Below, one piece after another: positions 25,284 through 33,293 of a stretch of 64,000 nucleotides of DNA (position 1 is its first letter; each line of letters starts with the position of its first letter). This DNA is from Poseidonibacter antarcticus (GTDB lineage Bacteria > Campylobacterota > Campylobacteria > Campylobacterales > Arcobacteraceae), in NCBI RefSeq assembly GCF_003667345.1, contig NZ_RCWF01000001.1, forward strand, positions 434,001 through 498,000. Reading direction: 5' to 3'. Under the pieces are notes generated by a model. That model was not told the DNA's origin. It saw nothing but the letters and a program-made list of their open reading frames with translations, and searched no databases. The translations under genes were made by a program, and so were the position numbers.

Positions 25284-26357
25284 ATGTTTAGTTTTTTTAA
25301 AAAGAAAAAGAAAGAAGAACCAAAAGAAGAACTTCCCAAAGAAGTTATAGAAGAAAAGATTGAAGAAAAAGTTCAAGAAATTGTAGAAGAAGTAAAAGAA
25401 CTTGAAAAAGAAGTGGTTGAAGAAGTAAAAGAAAAAATAATTGAACCTATTAAAGAAGAAATAAAAGAAGTAGAAGAGAAAAAAGGTTTCTTTTCAAGAG
25501 CTTTAGAAAAAACATTTTCAAGTATTAAAACAGTTATTCCAACAAAAAAAGAAAAAATTGATTTTGATGATATTGAAGAAATGCTAATTGAAGCAGATAT
25601 GGAATATGAAATTATTGAAAAAGCAATGGATGGATTACCTGCTGAAATTACAAGAAAACAGTTAAGACACAGACTTGTAATGCTTTTTGAACATGCACCT
25701 GATGTTGATTTAAGTAATTTACCAAAACCATTTGTAAGACTTATTATTGGAGTAAATGGAGCTGGTAAAACTACAACAATCGCTAAATTAGCCTATAAAG
25801 CTAAACAAGATGGGAAAAGTGTGATTTTAGGAGCTGGAGATACATTTAGAGCAGCTGCAATTGAACAACTTTCAACATGGGCCGATAGATTAGATGTTCC
25901 AATTATCAAAACAAAACAAGGTCATGACTCTTCAGCTGTAGCTTATGATACTATTTCATCAGCAATTGCAAAAGACATTGATAATGTAATTATTGATACA
26001 GCAGGACGATTACAAACACAAAAAAATCTTAATAATGAACTTATTAAAATTGTAAAAGTTTGTTCAAAAGCAAAAGAAAATGCTCCACATCAAAAACTAA
26101 TGATTTTAGATGGAACACAAGGAAATACAGCAATCGCACAAGCAAAAGCTTTTAATGAAATGGTTGGTATTGATGGAATTATTGTTACAAAACTTGATGG
26201 AACTGCAAAAGGTGGAGCATTATTTTCTATTTCAAATCAACTTGAACTTCCAATATTCTTTGTAGGAGTTGGTGAACAAAAAGAGGATTTAATCGAATTT
26301 AGTCCTGATGCATTTGTAGATTCACTATTAGATGAGATTTATACAGAAGAAAAATAG
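25284..26357 (+). CDS. ftsY: Signal recognition particle receptor FtsY
   Basis: FtsY receives SRP-ribosome complexes at the membrane for co-translational insertion. The 357-residue protein has an acidic/charged N-terminal region (about 8-65, rich in Glu-Lys-Val), an N domain, then the G domain with IGVNGAGKTTTIAKLA (P-loop), DTFRAAAIEQL, DTAGRLQ and TKLDGTAKGG. The charged N-terminal A-domain is short but typical for Campylobacterota. It is followed after 20 bp by the sensor gene. Confidence 0.95.
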   Translation: MFSFFKKKKKEEPKEELPKEVIEEKIEEKVQEIVEEVKELEKEVVEEVKEKIIEPIKEEIKEVEEKKGFFSRALEKTFSSIKTVIPTKKEKIDFDDIEEMLIEADMEYEIIEKAMDGLPAEITRKQLRHRLVMLFEHAPDVDLSNLPKPFVRLIIGVNGAGKTTTIAKLAYKAKQDGKSVILGAGDTFRAAAIEQLSTWADRLDVPIIKTKQGHDSSAVAYDTISSAIAKDIDNVIIDTAGRLQTQKNLNNELIKIVKVCSKAKENAPHQKLMILDGTQGNTAIAQAKAFNEMVGIDGIIVTKLDGTAKGGALFSISNQLELPIFFVGVGEQKEDLIEFSPDAFVDSLLDEIYTEEK

Positions 26358-26377
26358 TTAAAAAAAAGAGGTAAAGT

Positions 26378-27268
26378 TTGGGATTTTTAAACTCAAAAAC
26401 AAATAGATATTTATTTGCCATAATAGTAATTGCCTCTTTTACTATTTTTTTAGTTTTCTATTTCCTAAATAACTTAAACAATAGCAATAGACTTATAAAT
26501 AAATTAGAAAATGCCCTAACAACTACAAAAAATCTTTTTGAAGAACAAAAGAGATATGCTTTATCTTTATCTATTTTACTCTCTGAGGATAAAACAATTA
26601 TTGACAGTTTTATAAAAAAAGATAGAAAAAAAAGCTTTCAAATCGTTAATACGAAAATCAAGACCTTAAAACAATTACAAAATAGTACTCTTGAAATCCA
26701 AATACATAATAAAAATTTAACAACATATATTAGAAGTTGGGATATAAATACAAAGAACCTAAATTTAGCATCTTTTAGACAAGGTTTAATAAAAGTAGCA
26801 AAAGAGAAAAAACCTATTGTATCTATTGAATTAGGAGAGAGATTAAATATCAAAGCTATTTCTCCTATAATTGAAAACAATGAATATTTAGGTTCAGTTG
26901 AAGCTATTATAGATTTTGATTATTTATCACATGAACTTGCTAAAAAAGGTTATGAGCTATTTGTATTATTAGATAAAGAATACTTAAATATTGCAAGTGA
27001 ATTAAAAAATAAAAAAAGAATAAAAGACTATATTCTTATAAATAAAGCTAATATTCATCACTTAAATAATTTAGATTTAGATAATATTAAAGATTATGGA
27101 TATATTTCAAATGAAAATTACTCCTTTGCTTATTTCTCATATTATGGTTTAGATAATAAGCATTTAGGATATATTTTCACAGGAATTGATAATAATAAGC
27201 ATTTAGATATCAGTAATGATTATAAATATGAAACTATATATATCAACTCTAAGGTTAAAATTAAATGA
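26378..27268 (+). CDS. Membrane-anchored periplasmic sensor protein (Cache-like)
   Basis: A 296-residue protein with one N-terminal transmembrane helix (about 11-30) and a large extracytoplasmic domain. That domain has a long helix, then strand-rich parts with IRSWDINTKNLNLASFRQGL and GERLNIKAISPIIENNEYLGSVEAIIDFDYL, the pattern of a PDC/Cache ligand-binding domain (the SWD block is common in such sensors). No kinase, HAMP or chemotaxis domain follows. The start is a TTG with AGAGG six bases before it. It overlaps the response regulator gene by 4 bp, so it is probably the sensing subunit of the two-component system next to it. The ligand is unknown; thiosulfate or tetrathionate would fit tsdA downstream. 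Confidence 0.75.
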   Translation: MGFLNSKTNRYLFAIIVIASFTIFLVFYFLNNLNNSNRLINKLENALTTTKNLFEEQKRYALSLSILLSEDKTIIDSFIKKDRKKSFQIVNTKIKTLKQLQNSTLEIQIHNKNLTTYIRSWDINTKNLNLASFRQGLIKVAKEKKPIVSIELGERLNIKAISPIIENNEYLGSVEAIIDFDYLSHELAKKGYELFVLLDKEYLNIASELKNKKRIKDYILINKANIHHLNNLDLDNIKDYGYISNENYSFAYFSYYGLDNKHLGYIFTGIDNNKHLDISNDYKYETIYINSKVKIK

Positions 27269-27930
27269 GACTTTTACTGCTAGAAGATAATTTAGATTAT
27301 AAAGATACTATTAAAGAGTATTTAGAATCCTTAGGATATCAAATTGATGATTTTGAAGATGGCGAAGATGCATTAAATGCTATTTATATAAATAAATACC
27401 ATTTATTAATTTTGGATATAAAAGTTCCATCTTTAAGTGGATATGAACTAGTAAAAACAATTAGAGAAGATAATAACAATACTCCTGTAATTTATATAAC
27501 TTCTCTTACTGATATAAATAATCTAAGCTTAGGATATGAATTAGGTTGTAATGACTATATAAAAAAACCTTTTTCACCTAAAGAATTAAAATATAGAATT
27601 GAACAACTTATAAAACTATTTTATACTGATGAAAGTTCTGATCAAATCAAATTAAAACCTAATTTTACATATAACATTTTAAAAAGAGAACTTTTTATAA
27701 ATAATACTTTGATTAACTTAACAAAAAAAGAAAAAAGAGTAGTTTTTTGTTTAGTATCAAATAAGAATCAATTTGTAAGTATAGATAAACTAAGAAATGA
27801 CGTATGGGAAGATAAGTATATTTGTGAAGCAGATATTAGAGTTTGTATTAAAAAAATTAGAGATAAAACTTCAAAAGAATTTATTATAAACCAAAGAGGC
27901 ATAGGATATAAAATTGATAGAGAAAAGTAA
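27265..27930 (+). CDS. OmpR-type response regulator
   Basis: A 221-residue regulator: receiver domain (about 1-115) with acidic pair ED, phosphoacceptor Asp in LLILDIKVPSLSGYEL and Lys in YIKKPFSPKEL, followed by a winged-helix DNA-binding domain (about 130-221) with LTKKEKRVVFCLVSNKN and the recognition segment DIRVCIKKIRDKT. It overlaps the sensor protein gene by 4 bp and the kinase gene by 17 bp. A likely target is the tandem 14-bp repeat before tsdA; this is inference. Confidence 0.9.
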   Translation: MRLLLLEDNLDYKDTIKEYLESLGYQIDDFEDGEDALNAIYINKYHLLILDIKVPSLSGYELVKTIREDNNNTPVIYITSLTDINNLSLGYELGCNDYIKKPFSPKELKYRIEQLIKLFYTDESSDQIKLKPNFTYNILKRELFINNTLINLTKKEKRVVFCLVSNKNQFVSIDKLRNDVWEDKYICEADIRVCIKKIRDKTSKEFIINQRGIGYKIDREK

Positions 27931-29041
27931 AAACTTTATTCTAAAAATTTCTATTTTTTATACTGGAATATTTTTTATATTTATTGCTATTCCTACATAC
28001 TTTTATACTAATTTAGAATTAGAAAATTATAAAAATACTCAAAATAGACTATTAATAGAGCATGCTCAAATAATACAAAGAGCAATTTATGACTTCTCAA
28101 ACTCTAAAAGTGATACTTTTATTTTTCCAAAATCTTTTAAATTTGAAGCAACTTTATTAACAAAAGATAAAAAAGTAATATATCAAACAAGAAATCTAAA
28201 TGTAAATAGTAACTTGAAAATGTCTATAGAAGTAGAGCTCTCAAATAATAGATTAAATTCAAAATATCTTCAACTTAGCAAAAAAATCTCTTTTGATGAA
28301 GTATATTTCAAAATTCTTATCTTAAGTCTTGGTATTGGGCTTTTTATTTTCATTTCTATTTATTTTGTTATAAAAGCAAGTGTTGAACCTTATAAAAAAG
28401 CAAATGAATATTTAGATGCTTTTTTCAATGATGCAATGCATGAACTAAAAACCCCACTTGGAATCATACAACTAAATCTTGAAATACTTGAAAATAAGCA
28501 AAAAAAAGCAAAAGAACTTGAGCGTTCAATAAATGCTACAAAAAATCTTTTTTTAGTCTATGAAGATATTGAATATTTAATAAAACAAAAAAGAGTTCAA
28601 TACAATAAAGAAGATATAGATTTTACAAATATATTAAAACAAAGATTAGATCAATTTGAAAGCTTAGCAAGTCCCAAAAGTATTAAATTCAATGTAAATA
28701 TAGAAGAGAATATAAATTTAATAATAAATAGAACACATATTCTAAGAATTATTGATAATACACTTTCAAATGCAATAAAATATTCATTTAAAGAAACTAT
28801 AATCACAATTAATTTAATAAAAAAAGAAAACCATATTATTTTCAGTGTCCATAATTATTCAAATCCAATAAAAAATAAGAAAAATATTTTTATGAGATAT
28901 GAAAAAGAAAACCATATAAAAGGTGGTTTTGGAATAGGACTAAATATTATAAAAAATATTTGTCAAGAAAATAATATTAATATATTTTTAGATTCTACAG
29001 AAAAAGATGGAACAACTTTCAAATATATTTTTTTTAAATAA
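27914..29041 (+). CDS. Sensor histidine kinase
   Basis: A 375-residue membrane kinase. TM1 is about residues 10-30 and TM2 about 132-155, flanking a periplasmic region of about 100 residues. The HisKA box is NDAMHELKTPLGIIQLNLEIL (His at the centre), then an N-box IDNTLSNAIKYSF and a G2 box GGFGIGLNIIKNI. No PAS or HAMP is evident. Start overlaps the response regulator gene by 17 bp. The small own sensor and the separate Cache protein suggest a three-part signalling unit. tsdA follows about 100 bp later. Confidence 0.9.
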   Translation: MIEKSKNFILKISIFYTGIFFIFIAIPTYFYTNLELENYKNTQNRLLIEHAQIIQRAIYDFSNSKSDTFIFPKSFKFEATLLTKDKKVIYQTRNLNVNSNLKMSIEVELSNNRLNSKYLQLSKKISFDEVYFKILILSLGIGLFIFISIYFVIKASVEPYKKANEYLDAFFNDAMHELKTPLGIIQLNLEILENKQKKAKELERSINATKNLFLVYEDIEYLIKQKRVQYNKEDIDFTNILKQRLDQFESLASPKSIKFNVNIEENINLIINRTHILRIIDNTLSNAIKYSFKETIITINLIKKENHIIFSVHNYSNPIKNKKNIFMRYEKENHIKGGFGIGLNIIKNICQENNINIFLDSTEKDGTTFKYIFFK

Positions 29042-29068
29042 GACTTATTTTATACTTAATTATAACTT

Positions 29069-29096
29069 AAAACATACACTTTAAAATATACACTAA
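29069..29096 (+). promoter_or_regulatory. Tandem 14-bp direct repeat before tsdA
   Basis: AAAACATACACTTT (29069-29082) is followed directly by AAAATATACACTAA (29083-29096), identical at 11 of 14 positions. Tandem copies are usual for OmpR-type regulator sites, and the regulator is encoded just upstream. The repeat ends 46 bases before the tsdA GTG start. No protein binding has been shown. Confidence 0.5.
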
Positions 29097-29142
29097 AGTA
29101 ACTCTTTAAATGTAAAATAATTTTATATAAAAAGGAGTTACT

Positions 29143-30132
29143 GTGAAACTTAACAAAAAAAGATTAATTCTTATTTCAACTTTATTGACAACTGTTTTTT
29201 CTTCAAGTGTTTTTGCTTTTGATAAAAAAGAGTTACAAAAAAGAAGTGATAGAGGATTTGAACAACCTAAAATGGAATATGTAGTTCCAGATATGAAAGA
29301 TTTACCTGATAATCAATATGGGAAATTAGTTAAATATGGTAAAGAACTTATTGTTCATACATATAAATATATAGGACCTGAAGTTGAAGATGCAAGTATG
29401 AGATATACAGGAAATAATAATGCATGTCAAAACTGTCACTTAGATGCAGGAACAAAAAAGTATTCTGCTCCTTTTGTAGGAACTTTTGGTGCATTTCCTC
29501 AATATAGACCAAGAGAAGATGGTATTGGAACTTTAAGTGCAAGAATAAATGGATGTATGCAAAGAAGTATGAATGGATACTCTTTACCAACAGAAGGTAA
29601 AGAAATGAAAGCCATGAAAGCTTATATGCATTGGTTAAGTCAAGCTTATCCTGTAGGAGGAGCAAAACTTGAAGGTAGAAGATTAACTAAAATTGATAGA
29701 GAAATGGTGAAAACTACTAAGGCAGATGTTGTAAATGGTGAAAAAGTTTATTCACAAAATTGTGCATCATGTCATGGAGCAAATGGTGAAGGAATTAAAA
29801 ATCCTGGACGTGCAAATGGTTATATGTTCCCAAAATTATGGGGAAGTGACGATACTTACAATAAAGGTGCAGGAATGTATAGATTATTAAAATCTGCTGA
29901 CTTTATTAAAGCAAATATGCCTCTAGGTGCAACAAAAGAAAACCCTATATTAACAGATAAAGAAGCATATGATGTTGCTGCATTTATGAATCAAGATAGT
30001 CATTATAGACCAGAAAAAATCAATAGAACTTCTGATTTTCCAGATGATATTGTAAAAGCTCCTGATGTTTATAGACCAAATATGGAAACTATAGAACATC
30101 AATTTGGACCTTTTGGTAAACTAATGAAATAA
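29143..30132 (+). CDS. tsdA: Thiosulfate dehydrogenase / tetrathionate reductase, diheme cytochrome c
   Basis: TsdA joins two thiosulfates into tetrathionate or, in Campylobacter, mainly reduces tetrathionate. The 329-residue protein has a signal peptide (about 1-24), heme motif CQNCH (about 97-101) followed by LDAGTKKYSAPFVGTFG, heme motif CASCH (about 206-210), and the block RINGCMQRSMNG with the cysteine that is the distal ligand of heme 1 in the family. A methionine in IKANMPLG is a candidate heme 2 ligand. The start is GTG with AAGGAG before it. The tail is longer than in some TsdA proteins (about 45 residues after the ANMPLG block). No tsdB is adjacent. A hairpin terminator follows. Confidence 0.88.
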   Translation: MKLNKKRLILISTLLTTVFSSSVFAFDKKELQKRSDRGFEQPKMEYVVPDMKDLPDNQYGKLVKYGKELIVHTYKYIGPEVEDASMRYTGNNNACQNCHLDAGTKKYSAPFVGTFGAFPQYRPREDGIGTLSARINGCMQRSMNGYSLPTEGKEMKAMKAYMHWLSQAYPVGGAKLEGRRLTKIDREMVKTTKADVVNGEKVYSQNCASCHGANGEGIKNPGRANGYMFPKLWGSDDTYNKGAGMYRLLKSADFIKANMPLGATKENPILTDKEAYDVAAFMNQDSHYRPEKINRTSDFPDDIVKAPDVYRPNMETIEHQFGPFGKLMK

Positions 30133-30146
30133 ATAAAATAGCCAAG

Positions 30147-30190
30147 AAAATAGAAAAAACTATGAAAGTAAAATAGTTTTTCTATTTTTT
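30147..30190 (+). terminator. Terminator after tsdA
   Basis: AATAGAAAAAACTAT (30149-30163) pairs with ATAGTTTTTCTATT (30173-30186) with one bulged A, followed by a run of T. It closes the regulatory/tsdA unit. Confidence 0.8.
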
Positions 30191-30302
30191 GCTAAACTTC
30201 TTAAAATATTTACTAAAAAGTATTTCTCTCTAAATCATTTTCAATCTTAAAAAAATAATAAGTAATCATAAAATTCTCTAGAATAACTGTTGATAAATAT
30301 AT

Positions 30303-30363
30303 CTTTCTAGAAAGTTAGTTTTAAGTTAATAGATGTTACATTTAATTATATCTTTCTAGAAAG
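30303..30363. promoter_or_regulatory. Twofold palindromic operator upstream of the OsmC-like gene
   Basis: The perfect 12-bp palindrome CTTTCTAGAAAG occurs at 30303-30314 and 30352-30363, each within a longer shared TATCTTTCTAGAAAG. Their starts are 49 bp apart. The region from 30191 to 30553 has no complete gene, only a relic ORF (30371-30524), so these sites may be an operator for the OsmC-like unit. The regulator is not in the window that I can tell. Confidence 0.55.
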
Positions 30364-30370
30364 ACAGTAT

Positions 30371-30524
30371 TCAAAGGACGTAAATTCTATATTACAGCTT
30401 TTGCAGTTAAATATTATCAATTGTGGCTGTACTTTTAGGAATATACATGTTCTTTAATCCAGATTTTCAATTTGAAAATCCAAAAACAATAATTACTGAA
30501 TATATATTTTCAGTGATAAATTAA
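30371..30524 (+). pseudogene. Relic of a small membrane protein (two frames)
   Basis: A coding-like stretch FKGRKFYITAFAV (from 30371) ends in one frame at about 30408, and a neighbouring frame then gives ILSIVAVLLGIYMFFNPDFQ from 30411 to a TAA at 30522. Joined, they read as one transmembrane protein with a single frameshift. The second part alone has an ATG (30447) with AGGA seven bases before it and codes for 25 residues. I do not recognise the family, and it may be a chance frame; a relic is only a suggestion. Confidence 0.3.
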
Positions 30525-30553
30525 AAAAGATTTAAAGTAAAAAAGGAACGAAG

Positions 30554-31846
30554 ATGAAAATAAATACACTATCAATAGTAGTAGCACTATTAGTATCAGG
30601 AAGTGCAGTTTATGGACAAAGTGATGTAAATCAAGACCAAACAATTTATCAAATTGCAAAAAGATTAAATAATTATACTCGCCCTATAACTTTTACTCCT
30701 ACAAAAGCAATAGCAGTAAATGGTTCAATTACAGAAAATATTGTTACAACAACACAAAATATAGTAAATAAAGAAGCACCTTTTCTTAAAAAAGGTATCG
30801 TAAAACCAGTAGGTGAGGATCAATTTAGTGCATGGGAAGCTGTAAGTGATGAAAGGGGAGCAGGTCATAATCAAACTGCTCCAAATCCTTTGACTTATTA
30901 TGCAGCAGGATCAGCTTCAAGTTTATTAACTCAAGTTGAAAGAGCTATTCAAGTTATGGGTTTAGATGTGAAAGATGTAAAAGTAGAATCAGAAATATTT
31001 TTTAGATGGTCTGATACTATGAGTGATAAATGGTCTGGATACACAGATAAAGTTGTATCAAATATATTAATTTCAAGTAATGAACCAGCTTCAAAAATAA
31101 AAGAATTAAAACAAATGGCAATTAAAGCATGGGCAGTGGGAGAAGGTTTAGCAAATAAATCTACTATTGATGTAGGTATTCAAGTAAATACGGATAATTG
31201 GGCAGGATTACAAGCACACCTAGGAAAAGTAGGAACTCCACTATCAAAAGATAATGGTCAAATAATCACTAACATCACACCTGATTTAAATAATGTACTT
31301 CAAACAATTAAAGTTAAAGATGATTTCTCTATAGATATGCATAAATTTCCAAGTTCAATGGCATTTAGTGAAATTGTAATTGCGCAATCTGCAAATGATA
31401 AAACAAGACCATTTATGCATAAAATTAGAGCAAAATCATTAACTGAAAACTATGCAACTTGGGAACTTTATACTGATGATAGTCGTGGATATGAAGGAAT
31501 AGATAAAGCACCAACGTCAAGAGATTACTTTACTTTAGGAACATCTTTTTGTTTAATGAGTCAATTAACTGCAGCTAAGGGTTACTATCATCAAAAAGGG
31601 ATTAATATAGATAACTATAGAGTTGAACATCAATTTGATTATGTTCAAGATAATTTTATGACCCCTTCTATGAATGGTCATCTTGATAATGTTATTACAA
31701 AAGTTATTGTGACAAGTGATGCAAAAAAAGAAGAGTTAGTTAAATATGCTAAACAAGCACTTAGTATGTGTTTTGCAGGAGAAGGTATCCAAAATGAAAC
31801 TGAGATGGAAACGAGTGTTTATTTAAATGGAAAAGTTGTCAAATAA
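30554..31846 (+). CDS. Secreted protein with two OsmC-like domains
   Basis: A 430-residue protein with a signal peptide (about 1-21, ending VYGQ). Two OsmC/Ohr-fold domains follow. Domain 1 (about 95-220) has NPLTYYAAGSASSLLTQVE and IKAWAVGEGL; domain 2 (about 300-428) has the equivalent GTSFCLMSQLTAAKG and KQALSMCFAGEG. OsmC proteins reduce organic hydroperoxides with two cysteines at these places. Domain 2 keeps both; domain 1 has Ser and Trp instead, so it looks catalytically dead. An exported tandem OsmC with a lost first site is unusual. It starts after AAGGAACGAAG and the next gene follows with no gap. Confidence 0.75.
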   Translation: MKINTLSIVVALLVSGSAVYGQSDVNQDQTIYQIAKRLNNYTRPITFTPTKAIAVNGSITENIVTTTQNIVNKEAPFLKKGIVKPVGEDQFSAWEAVSDERGAGHNQTAPNPLTYYAAGSASSLLTQVERAIQVMGLDVKDVKVESEIFFRWSDTMSDKWSGYTDKVVSNILISSNEPASKIKELKQMAIKAWAVGEGLANKSTIDVGIQVNTDNWAGLQAHLGKVGTPLSKDNGQIITNITPDLNNVLQTIKVKDDFSIDMHKFPSSMAFSEIVIAQSANDKTRPFMHKIRAKSLTENYATWELYTDDSRGYEGIDKAPTSRDYFTLGTSFCLMSQLTAAKGYYHQKGINIDNYRVEHQFDYVQDNFMTPSMNGHLDNVITKVIVTSDAKKEELVKYAKQALSMCFAGEGIQNETEMETSVYLNGKVVK

Positions 31847-32308
31847 ATGAATAAAATATTAGATAACAAAACACTAAAAAAGATTTTTGTAATGATTGGG
31901 ATGATGAGTCTAATAGGAGGTACTTTTATTGCTATTATGACTTATGCCAATATTGGATTTTCGAATAAGTTCTTCTTCACATGGTATAGCTCACTATTTT
32001 TTGCAATACTTGTAATGATGCCACTTGGTGCAATCATAATGATTATTTCAAATAAAATAGTTAAAATAAGTATCCCTAATCAAAAAGAAATTTTACAAAA
32101 TATAGCCATTGGAATTCTTATGGCTTTATCAATGGAAGCAATAATGGCAGTAGTGACAACTATAAATATACATGGATACTCAGATTTCAATCTGTTTTCA
32201 TCTTTTTGGTTAAAGAGTTATTTACTGGCACTTCCATTTGCTTTAGTAATGTCTCCAATGATGACCATTCTTGTTAAACCAAAATTAGATGCGTATTTAG
32301 CTAAATAA
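31847..32308 (+). CDS. DUF2798 family membrane protein
   Basis: A 153-residue membrane protein with four predicted helices in two repeated DUF2798-like halves. The first half includes IFVMIGMMSLIGGTFIAIMTYANI, then a W and the block MPLGAIIMIISNKIV; the second half has IAIGILMALSMEAIMAVVTT and LPFALVMSPMM. The start comes right after the OsmC-like gene stop (TAAATGA). The family is uncharacterised. Its place between OsmC-like and DUF3861 genes suggests one operon. Confidence 0.75.
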   Translation: MNKILDNKTLKKIFVMIGMMSLIGGTFIAIMTYANIGFSNKFFFTWYSSLFFAILVMMPLGAIIMIISNKIVKISIPNQKEILQNIAIGILMALSMEAIMAVVTTINIHGYSDFNLFSSFWLKSYLLALPFALVMSPMMTILVKPKLDAYLAK

Positions 32309-32330
32309 AAAATAAATATTAGGAGAAAGA

Positions 32331-32615
32331 ATGAAAGGTAATTTATATAAGTTTACAATTGAGCATTTAGAAGATGCAAAAGGCAATGATCTTGAAGCAA
32401 ATCCTTTAGTATTTGAAACAAAAAATCATGATGATATTTTTAAAATTGTAGAACAAATGGAAGGCAAGATGCAACTTGATAATCAAGATACAAAAGCATT
32501 ACTTATTGGTTTAAAATTGTTTAGTGAAGTTATGTTGAAAAATAAGGATTCCAAACCTTTTAAAGAACTACTTCCCCACTTCAAAAACTTTATGAAAGAA
32601 TTAAAAAAGAAATAA
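32331..32615 (+). CDS. DUF3861 family protein
   Basis: A 94-residue soluble protein with the family layout: GNLYKFTIEHLEDAKGNDLE at the start, FETKNHDDIFKIVEQMEGK in the middle, and a tail LIGLKLFSEVMLKNKDSKPFKELLPHF. Function is unknown. It follows the DUF2798 gene after 22 bp with an AGGAG site before its ATG. Downstream, a decayed copy of the OsmC-like gene end lies before a terminator. Confidence 0.8.
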   Translation: MKGNLYKFTIEHLEDAKGNDLEANPLVFETKNHDDIFKIVEQMEGKMQLDNQDTKALLIGLKLFSEVMLKNKDSKPFKELLPHFKNFMKELKKK

Positions 32616-32692
32616 AAGGACAAATATATAATTATGCTCTTATGAAACTATAAGTGTATATGTACAAAAAAAATGGAAAAGTTATCAAATAA
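32616..32692 (+). pseudogene. Decayed copy of the OsmC-like gene 3' end
   Basis: The 24 bases 32671-32694 match 31825-31848 (the last codons and stop of the OsmC-like gene) at 23 of 24 positions, and in frame read N-G-K-V-I-K-stop against N-G-K-V-V-K-stop. Just upstream, E-T-I-S-V-Y matches E-T-S-V-Y of the true gene with a shift. It seems a second copy of the 3' end was lost or degraded, or the repeat flanks a rearrangement. The DUF2798-DUF3861 pair lies exactly between the two copies. Confidence 0.5.
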
Positions 32693-32697
32693 ATTAA

Positions 32698-32725
32698 AAT
32701 AAGAAGATAAAACTATCTTCTTATT
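32698..32725. terminator. Bidirectional terminator
   Basis: A perfect 12-bp stem, AATAAGAAGATA (32698-32709) with TATCTTCTTATT (32714-32725), and a 4-base loop, between the convergent DUF3861 unit and the esterase gene. Confidence 0.85.
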
Positions 32726-32726
32726 A

Positions 32727-33293
32727 TTAAGATAAAAAAGAATTAATCTTTCTAAAATATTTTTCAATTCCTACAAAAGAATGATTCCCACCCTCTTCTA
32801 TTATCAAATTTGTTTCTTCAAGCTTTTCAGCGGCTTCTTCATAATCTAAAATTTCATCTTCATCTTGAAGTAAAGTTAAAAAGTTTTCAGGATTTTTGAT
32901 AATCAAAACTTCATAATTTCGTAAAGATTGAGAATGAGAATGATTAAATTCAAACTTTGAATTATCATAATAAGATGTTGCTAATTCATATTCATCTTTT
33001 CTATAATTTTCTAATGTAATCCAAGGATAAACAGCAGGATTTATTAATACAGCTTTTAGATTATATTTATTTGCAAGATATAAACTATAAAAACCACCTA
33101 ATGAAGAACCTATCAAAGATACCTTTTCACCTCTATTCAAAAAAGCCTCTATCAGCTGTTCTAGTGTAGCTATTGCTAAATTTGGTATTGTTGGAAGTGT
33201 TGGTGTAATTATCTCATCTTCAAAGTATTCTAAGAATTTTTGGGCTTTTACTCCAAAACCTGCACTTGCGAAACCATGTAAGTAAATTATCAT
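32727..33293 (-). CDS. YqiA/YcfP-like alpha/beta hydrolase
   Basis: A 188-residue alpha/beta-fold esterase. It starts MIIYLHGFASAGFG (oxyanion-hole HGF), has the nucleophile elbow LIGSSLGGFYSLYLANKYN with Ser in GSSLGG, an acidic LLQDEDEILDYEEA and the catalytic His in EEGGNHSFVG. The family is small and cytoplasmic, with a few members active on short acyl esters. It stands alone, convergent with the OsmC-like unit and divergent from lpxR. Confidence 0.85.
   Translation of the reverse strand: MIIYLHGFASAGFGVKAQKFLEYFEDEIITPTLPTIPNLAIATLEQLIEAFLNRGEKVSLIGSSLGGFYSLYLANKYNLKAVLINPAVYPWITLENYRKDEYELATSYYDNSKFEFNHSHSQSLRNYEVLIIKNPENFLTLLQDEDEILDYEEAAEKLEETNLIIEEGGNHSFVGIEKYFRKINSFLS

Follow-up and report, generated by a model that had tools for sequence, protein, structure and literature searches.

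A tandem OsmC protein with a cysteine-free first half and a predicted signal peptide in Poseidonibacter antarcticus

Introduction

OsmC-family proteins are normally homodimers and are treated as small cytosolic proteins with two equal sites. One gene in the window analysed here, a stretch of 64,000 nucleotides from the genome of Poseidonibacter antarcticus, has a product that was originally predicted to be a secreted fusion of two OsmC-like domains, the first with a lost reactive site, and perhaps to be a built-in heterodimer for periplasmic peroxides or another thiol task. The locus raises the question of whether such a lopsided protein is the relic of a damaged gene or a design in its own right and, if the latter, what the two halves might do for each other.

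Results

Both halves of the protein are very likely OsmC domains

The Pfam OsmC model (PF02566) matches twice within the single ORF, with scores of 30.7 and 28.7 bits, both above the curated cut-off of 27.5 (53.2 bits for the whole protein), which places each half in the OsmC superfamily. The NCBIfam family of OsmC-related (seleno)proteins, NF041052, scores 131.1 bits in two stretches against a cut-off of 95; the Cys or Sec that this family requires at its UxxT/CxxS position is Cys333 (CLMS) in the second domain (D2) and is replaced by Ser in the first (D1). Profiles made from ten D1 halves and eleven D2 halves both returned 3cje as the top structure (E values in Table 1). When a fold prediction for D1 alone (pLDDT 55) was searched with Foldseek, the 17 PDB matches with E<=0.001 were without exception OsmC-family structures. 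A model of the whole protein made from four sequences (pLDDT 37.8, pTM 0.41) was too poor to reveal the domain arrangement; in this same poor model the secondary-structure elements of OsmC (a long helix, two paired strands and another helix) are seen in each half, and OsmC proteins head its PDB matches. Because the profile matches to 3cje and the fold-model matches concur, both halves are very likely OsmC domains, which supports the predicted two-domain make-up.

Table 1. Features of the tandem OsmC locus, in window positions.
Feature	Position	Strand	Basis or remark
Two near-identical 29-bp repeats around palindrome CTTTCTAGAAAG, 49 bp apart	30294..30371	.	both lie in the 420-bp upstream gap
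Tandem OsmC gene, 430 aa precursor	30554..31846	+	ORF, ATG start; PF02566 twice; NF041052 twice
Predicted signal peptide, residues 1-21 (MKINTLSIVVALLVSGSAVYG)	30554..30616	+	hydropathy and cleavage-site pattern as in Cocleimonas orthologues, absent from other relatives
OsmC domain 1 (D1), residues 74-216, lacking both cysteines	30773..31201	+	profile match 3cje 5e-13; Foldseek matches all OsmC
Lys79, the same in every complete D1 of the tandem set	30788..30790	+	alignment
Asp99-Glu100, never varying in a complete tandem D1 or in single-domain relatives	30848..30853	+	alignment
Ser123 (AGT) at the D1 reactive-cysteine position	30920..30922	+	Ser, Asn, Ala or Asp in other members
Trp193 (TGG) at the D1 second-cysteine position	31130..31132	+	Trp or Ser in other members
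Linker, residues 217-267	31202..31354	+	low conservation in alignment
OsmC domain 2 (D2), residues 268-430, with both cysteines	31355..31843	+	profile match 3cje 2.2e-9
Cys333, predicted reactive (peroxidatic-type)	31550..31552	+	invariant in D2 of tandem members and in single-domain relatives
Cys406, predicted resolving cysteine	31769..31771	+	invariant in D2 of tandem members and in single-domain relatives
DUF2798 membrane protein, its start codon abutting the OsmC stop	31847..32308	+	

Tandem relatives share the dead-then-live order

Twelve further tandem relatives, 13-70% identical to the window protein, were found in Gamma-, Beta- and Alphaproteobacteria and in Streptomyces, giving a set of 13 proteins, 12 of them with a complete D1 (the exception being L034). 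A genome scan yielded two exported orthologues in Cocleimonas (L003, L004), each 70% identical to the window protein. C. flava also carries a 44% identical tandem paralogue without a signal peptide (L022); in a sister genome of this genus a 79-aa remnant of the non-exported paralogue (L035 1492-1731) indicates that the copy was lost there. Another genome of the Cocleimonas order (L034) contains a tandem form that lacks the N-terminal half of D1 and has an intact D2. A single-domain OsmC-like gene of 141-142 aa immediately follows the tandem gene in two genomes (L004 5466-5894; L034 1021-1446). The family search added two more tandem proteins without signal peptide (L069, L076), and a third (L094) is encoded beside putative TRAP transporter genes. 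A plasmid search with L076 produced five more, from Comamonas, Nitratireductor, Pacificitalea and two Streptomyces. Searches of phages and plasmids gave no match to the window protein and no member of its OsmC family was found in viral contigs, so the idea that the exported form came from a phage or plasmid was rejected.

The cysteine positions of the two halves differ as had been claimed. In D1 the motifs read GSASSLLTQ (Ser123) and AIKAWAVGEG (Trp193); in D2 they read GTSFCLMSQ (Cys333) and ALSMCFAGEG (Cys406). Both D1 cysteines are missing from every tandem protein with a complete D1, the window protein included (12 of 12), and both D2 cysteines are present in all 13, down to 13% identity. 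Thus, a homologue with cysteines in both halves, which would have undermined the prediction, was not encountered among the 12 complete proteins, none of which carries either D1 cysteine. Since relatives in other bacteria have the identical arrangement, the lopsided design is a selected one and not a damaged gene. We also considered whether Trp193, whose TGG codon is one base from UGA, might be a selenocysteine remnant. The idea was dropped, as Sec in the known family occupies the first cysteine position (UxxT). The window gene contains no in-frame UGA or other stop.

A predicted signal peptide is a rare trait of the tandem proteins

Signal peptides were judged from hydropathy (13-residue Kyte-Doolittle mean) together with the cleavage region. 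Residues 1-21 of the window protein have the look of a Sec-type signal peptide, with a peak mean of 2.28. The Cocleimonas orthologues peak at 1.8-2.2 and have a similar AVYG/AVYA cleavage region, and the other tandem relatives reach at most 1.26. Signal peptides are therefore confined to three of the 13 tandem proteins, namely the window protein and its two Cocleimonas orthologues (one of the other ten is N-terminally truncated). The signal peptide placed ahead of the two domains by the original prediction is found again in these two homologues, and the descriptive part of that prediction is right throughout. The notion of a fused, exported OsmC stands for the window protein, which is predicted to be exported; it does not extend to the family, in which export seems a rare trait. 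Cys333 and Cys406 are the sole cysteines of the window protein, and all three exported proteins have exactly these two; three to eight are found in the non-exported relatives whose D1 is complete.

Conserved residues are unevenly divided between the halves

Six residues of D1 are invariant in the tandem proteins, Lys79, Trp94, Asp99, Glu100, Pro112 and Leu113, and the corresponding positions are more weakly conserved in D2. There the Lys column has no majority residue and Glu is found in 50%, as opposed to 92-100% for the Phe-Cys pair and the second Cys. Single-domain relatives combine the invariant Lys, Asp and Glu with both invariant Cys in one chain. The pattern fits a fused dimer in which both halves would contribute to the single remaining site. 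Judging from the alignment, the residues are not cleanly divided: five non-exported tandem members also keep the D2 Glu, the D2 Lys of the window lineage is displaced by one column, and the D2 of the truncated L034 protein has its own Lys and Asp-Glu.

The D2 site resembles, in part, that of Ohr/OsmC peroxidases

Of the Ohr/OsmC catalytic residues, the reactive and resolving cysteines are present in D2 (Cys333, Cys406) and absent from D1. The catalytic Glu, expected ten residues before the reactive cysteine as in XfOhr (Glu51/Cys61; PMC5962072), is Arg323 in D2 and Leu113 in D1. No conserved Arg column corresponds to the catalytic Arg of the Ohr N-terminal loop, and in that region D1 has its conserved Lys. 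In known OsmC-like selenoproteins Sec replaces the first cysteine (UxxT), which supports redox chemistry at this position (PMC1088965). As family members have either Cys or Sec at the reactive position, D2 is likely to carry out thiol redox chemistry. A role in reducing peroxides is plausible and falls short of being established, since no activity is known for the YhfA-like branch, in which the Arg and Glu of Ohr are missing (PMC8945050), and the window protein is itself without the Glu. The peroxide reductase of the original prediction was consequently a guess, made for a member of the YhfA/NF041052-like branch.

The tandem may have arisen more than once

When the halves were placed in trees as separate sequences, the D1 and D2 domains from the window lineage came out as mutual sisters (support 98/93, and 98/94 when the cysteine columns are left out). 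This pair has a single-domain relative (L028) as its neighbour and is separated from the two halves of the plasmid lineage. A topology holding all D1 together was not rejected (AU p = 0.25) and one holding all D2 together was barely rejected (p = 0.048), in a tandem sample that is small (13 proteins). These trees favour, short of proof, the view that the tandem arose twice, with the first copy losing its cysteines each time; gene conversion between the halves would also give such a tree.

Gene neighbourhoods differ between the exported and non-exported forms

The window segment from ftsY to yqiA (26357-32727) is variable in the genus. In three members ftsY adjoins genes that we take to be yqiA and LpxR-like, with none of the window cluster in between; in a fourth, DUF3861 alone of this cluster separates ftsY from yqiA; in a fifth, the two-component/cytochrome cluster adjoins yqiA without OsmC. 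The OsmC-DUF2798 pair was seen in the window genome alone among the genus members compared, and the window gene is the only OsmC gene of the P. antarcticus genome (Pfam OsmC scan). Its GC3 of 0.11 is typical of the neighbours. Although the distribution suggests transfer, a recent event was rejected on this base composition. The gene was probably acquired, and not recently, because its codon composition is local.

OsmC and DUF2798 are probably co-translated, given their abutting codons; no DUF2798 gene was seen beside the Cocleimonas orthologues. The 29-bp repeats upstream possibly represent a putative operator pair. Promoter and terminator scans gave sites no more numerous than in shuffled sequences. 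The reading frame LSIVAVLLGIYMFFNPDFQFENPKTIITEYIFSVIN (window 30420-30525) stops shortly upstream of the OsmC gene and resembles the last part of a membrane protein gene that has been lost. Further upstream (26378-30132) lies a cluster for a dCache sensor, a response regulator, a histidine kinase and a SoxA/TsdA-type diheme cytochrome c, whose location varies among genus members. A functional link to this cytochrome was rejected, the cluster occurring without OsmC in two genus members.

Neighbours of the exported genes differ in each genome, with no conserved one to indicate a substrate. Non-exported tandem relatives lie near genes for reductive dehalogenases, aromatic-ring enzymes and TRAP transporters, some of them identified by eye. 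Two unrelated plasmids have such an OsmC gene near reductive dehalogenase genes (L088 1-9194; L089 1925-8173), and at a further locus (L097 6926-12869) it is followed by putative pyruvate dehydrogenase E1 and lipoyl-bearing E2 genes (by eye). A lipoyl-bearing E2 is the kind of partner that re-reduces Ohr. These neighbours hint at xenobiotic or aromatic metabolism, perhaps with lipoyl reductants, for the non-exported branch. Neither reductive dehalogenase, TRAP transporter nor E1/E2 genes were found beside the exported OsmC genes.

Discussion

Our leading explanation, whose chances we consider about even, is that the protein is exported and acts as an OsmC pseudo-dimer made of a single chain, in which one redox site works. 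Ohr/OsmC homodimers have two active sites, located at the dimer interface (PMC5962072). In the window protein the two partners would be fused in one chain. The Cys333/Cys406 pair of D2 would react outside the cytoplasm with a substrate in its oxidised form and then join in a disulfide within the chain, while the thiol-free D1, keeping its fold and the Lys/Trp/Asp-Glu segment, would supply the second half of the interface and probably contribute residues to the single active site. Re-reduction might take a periplasmic DsbD/thioredoxin route, because the lipoylated partners of cytosolic Ohr are not expected in the periplasm; a DsbD-type protein, encoded in the genome, could plausibly provide reducing power there. 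We infer the intramolecular pairing, the shared active site, the substrate and the reductant.

The role of D1 could be a humbler one. It might be purely structural, completing the pseudo-dimer and stabilising D2 with no active-site residue of its own, so that D2 would work as half of an ordinary homodimer. The free drift of the D1 cysteine positions (Ser, Asn, Ala or Asp at one, Trp or Ser at the other), the D2 domains that keep Glu and the L034 protein, with half of D1 lost and Lys and Glu kept in D2, all speak for this reading; the truncation also counts against the leading explanation, as D1 may be dispensable there. Nevertheless, we regard a purely structural D1 as unlikely, if worth serious attention, since D1 has Lys79, Asp99 and Glu100 without exception, even in proteins as little as 13% identical, and these positions are less conserved in D2, a pattern that seems more than scaffolding alone needs.

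Other doubts concern the chemistry and the very significance of the arrangement. Cys333/Cys406 might act on disulfides, persulfides or other electrophiles outside the cytoplasm instead of serving a peroxidase, as could be argued from the YhfA-like branch, which has no known activity and is without the Ohr Arg and Glu (PMC8945050), from the Arg ten residues before Cys333 and from the dehalogenase and aromatic-ring enzyme genes near non-exported relatives. However, such a substrate has no direct support and the neighbours of the exported lineage change from genome to genome; we think this rather unlikely. Alternatively, the first site could have been lost by chance in the window lineage after acquisition, as meaningless decay, for which one may cite the presence of the gene in just one of 397 Campylobacterota genomes. 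Set against this are the intact reading frame, the 70% identity to Cocleimonas with D2 conserved, and the identical loss in all complete tandem relatives. Chance decay is refuted by these relatives, and we give it hardly any credence.

Returning to the single-chain pseudo-dimer, a wider version of it can be offered tentatively, being rather doubtful as a whole: the tandem proteins would be single-chain heterodimers, their site split between a thiol-bearing and a thiol-free half, produced by at least two independent tandem duplications in which the first copy lost its cysteines, one lineage being exported. A conserved dead/live tandem is a natural asymmetric OsmC, in which ordinary point mutations can probe what the partner subunit does. 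Its exported form, if real, extends OsmC chemistry to the periplasm and poses the question of re-reduction there; a repeated origin with the first half dead each time, if true, is a clear case of convergence.

The half-dead tandem OsmC is a variant within an already-known kind of protein. Our search of the open literature found nothing on tandem, double or fused OsmC and, as far as that literature shows, the architecture, here with predicted export, is a real, conserved and undescribed one. Ohr/OsmC peroxidases have the same fold and the two-cysteine site of D2; the window protein differs from them in being a fused tandem, predicted to be exported, with a cysteine-free D1 and no Glu ten residues before the reactive Cys. 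The OsmC-like protein of Jannaschia (NF041052/3cje) is the best structure for both halves, which both match it, and shares the CxxS/T segment and second cysteine of D2. It is a single domain with both cysteines, unlike the tandem with its cysteine-free D1, and the single-domain NF041052-type relatives examined have no signal peptide, whereas the window protein is predicted to have one. Non-exported tandem proteins of plasmids (WP_015586008.1, Comamonas sp. 7D-2 pBHB; WP_113156445.1, Nitratireductor pOM-1), annotated merely as 'OsmC family protein' or hypothetical protein, have the same dead-then-live order and the conserved D1 Lys and Asp-Glu; they differ in lacking a signal peptide, in their extra cysteines and in an identity of only 13-17%, and probably stem from a separate tandem duplication. 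The exported C. flava protein (L003 3992-5284) has different gene neighbours but, at 70% identity, shares with the window protein the signal peptide, the Ser/Trp pair of D1 and the two cysteines.
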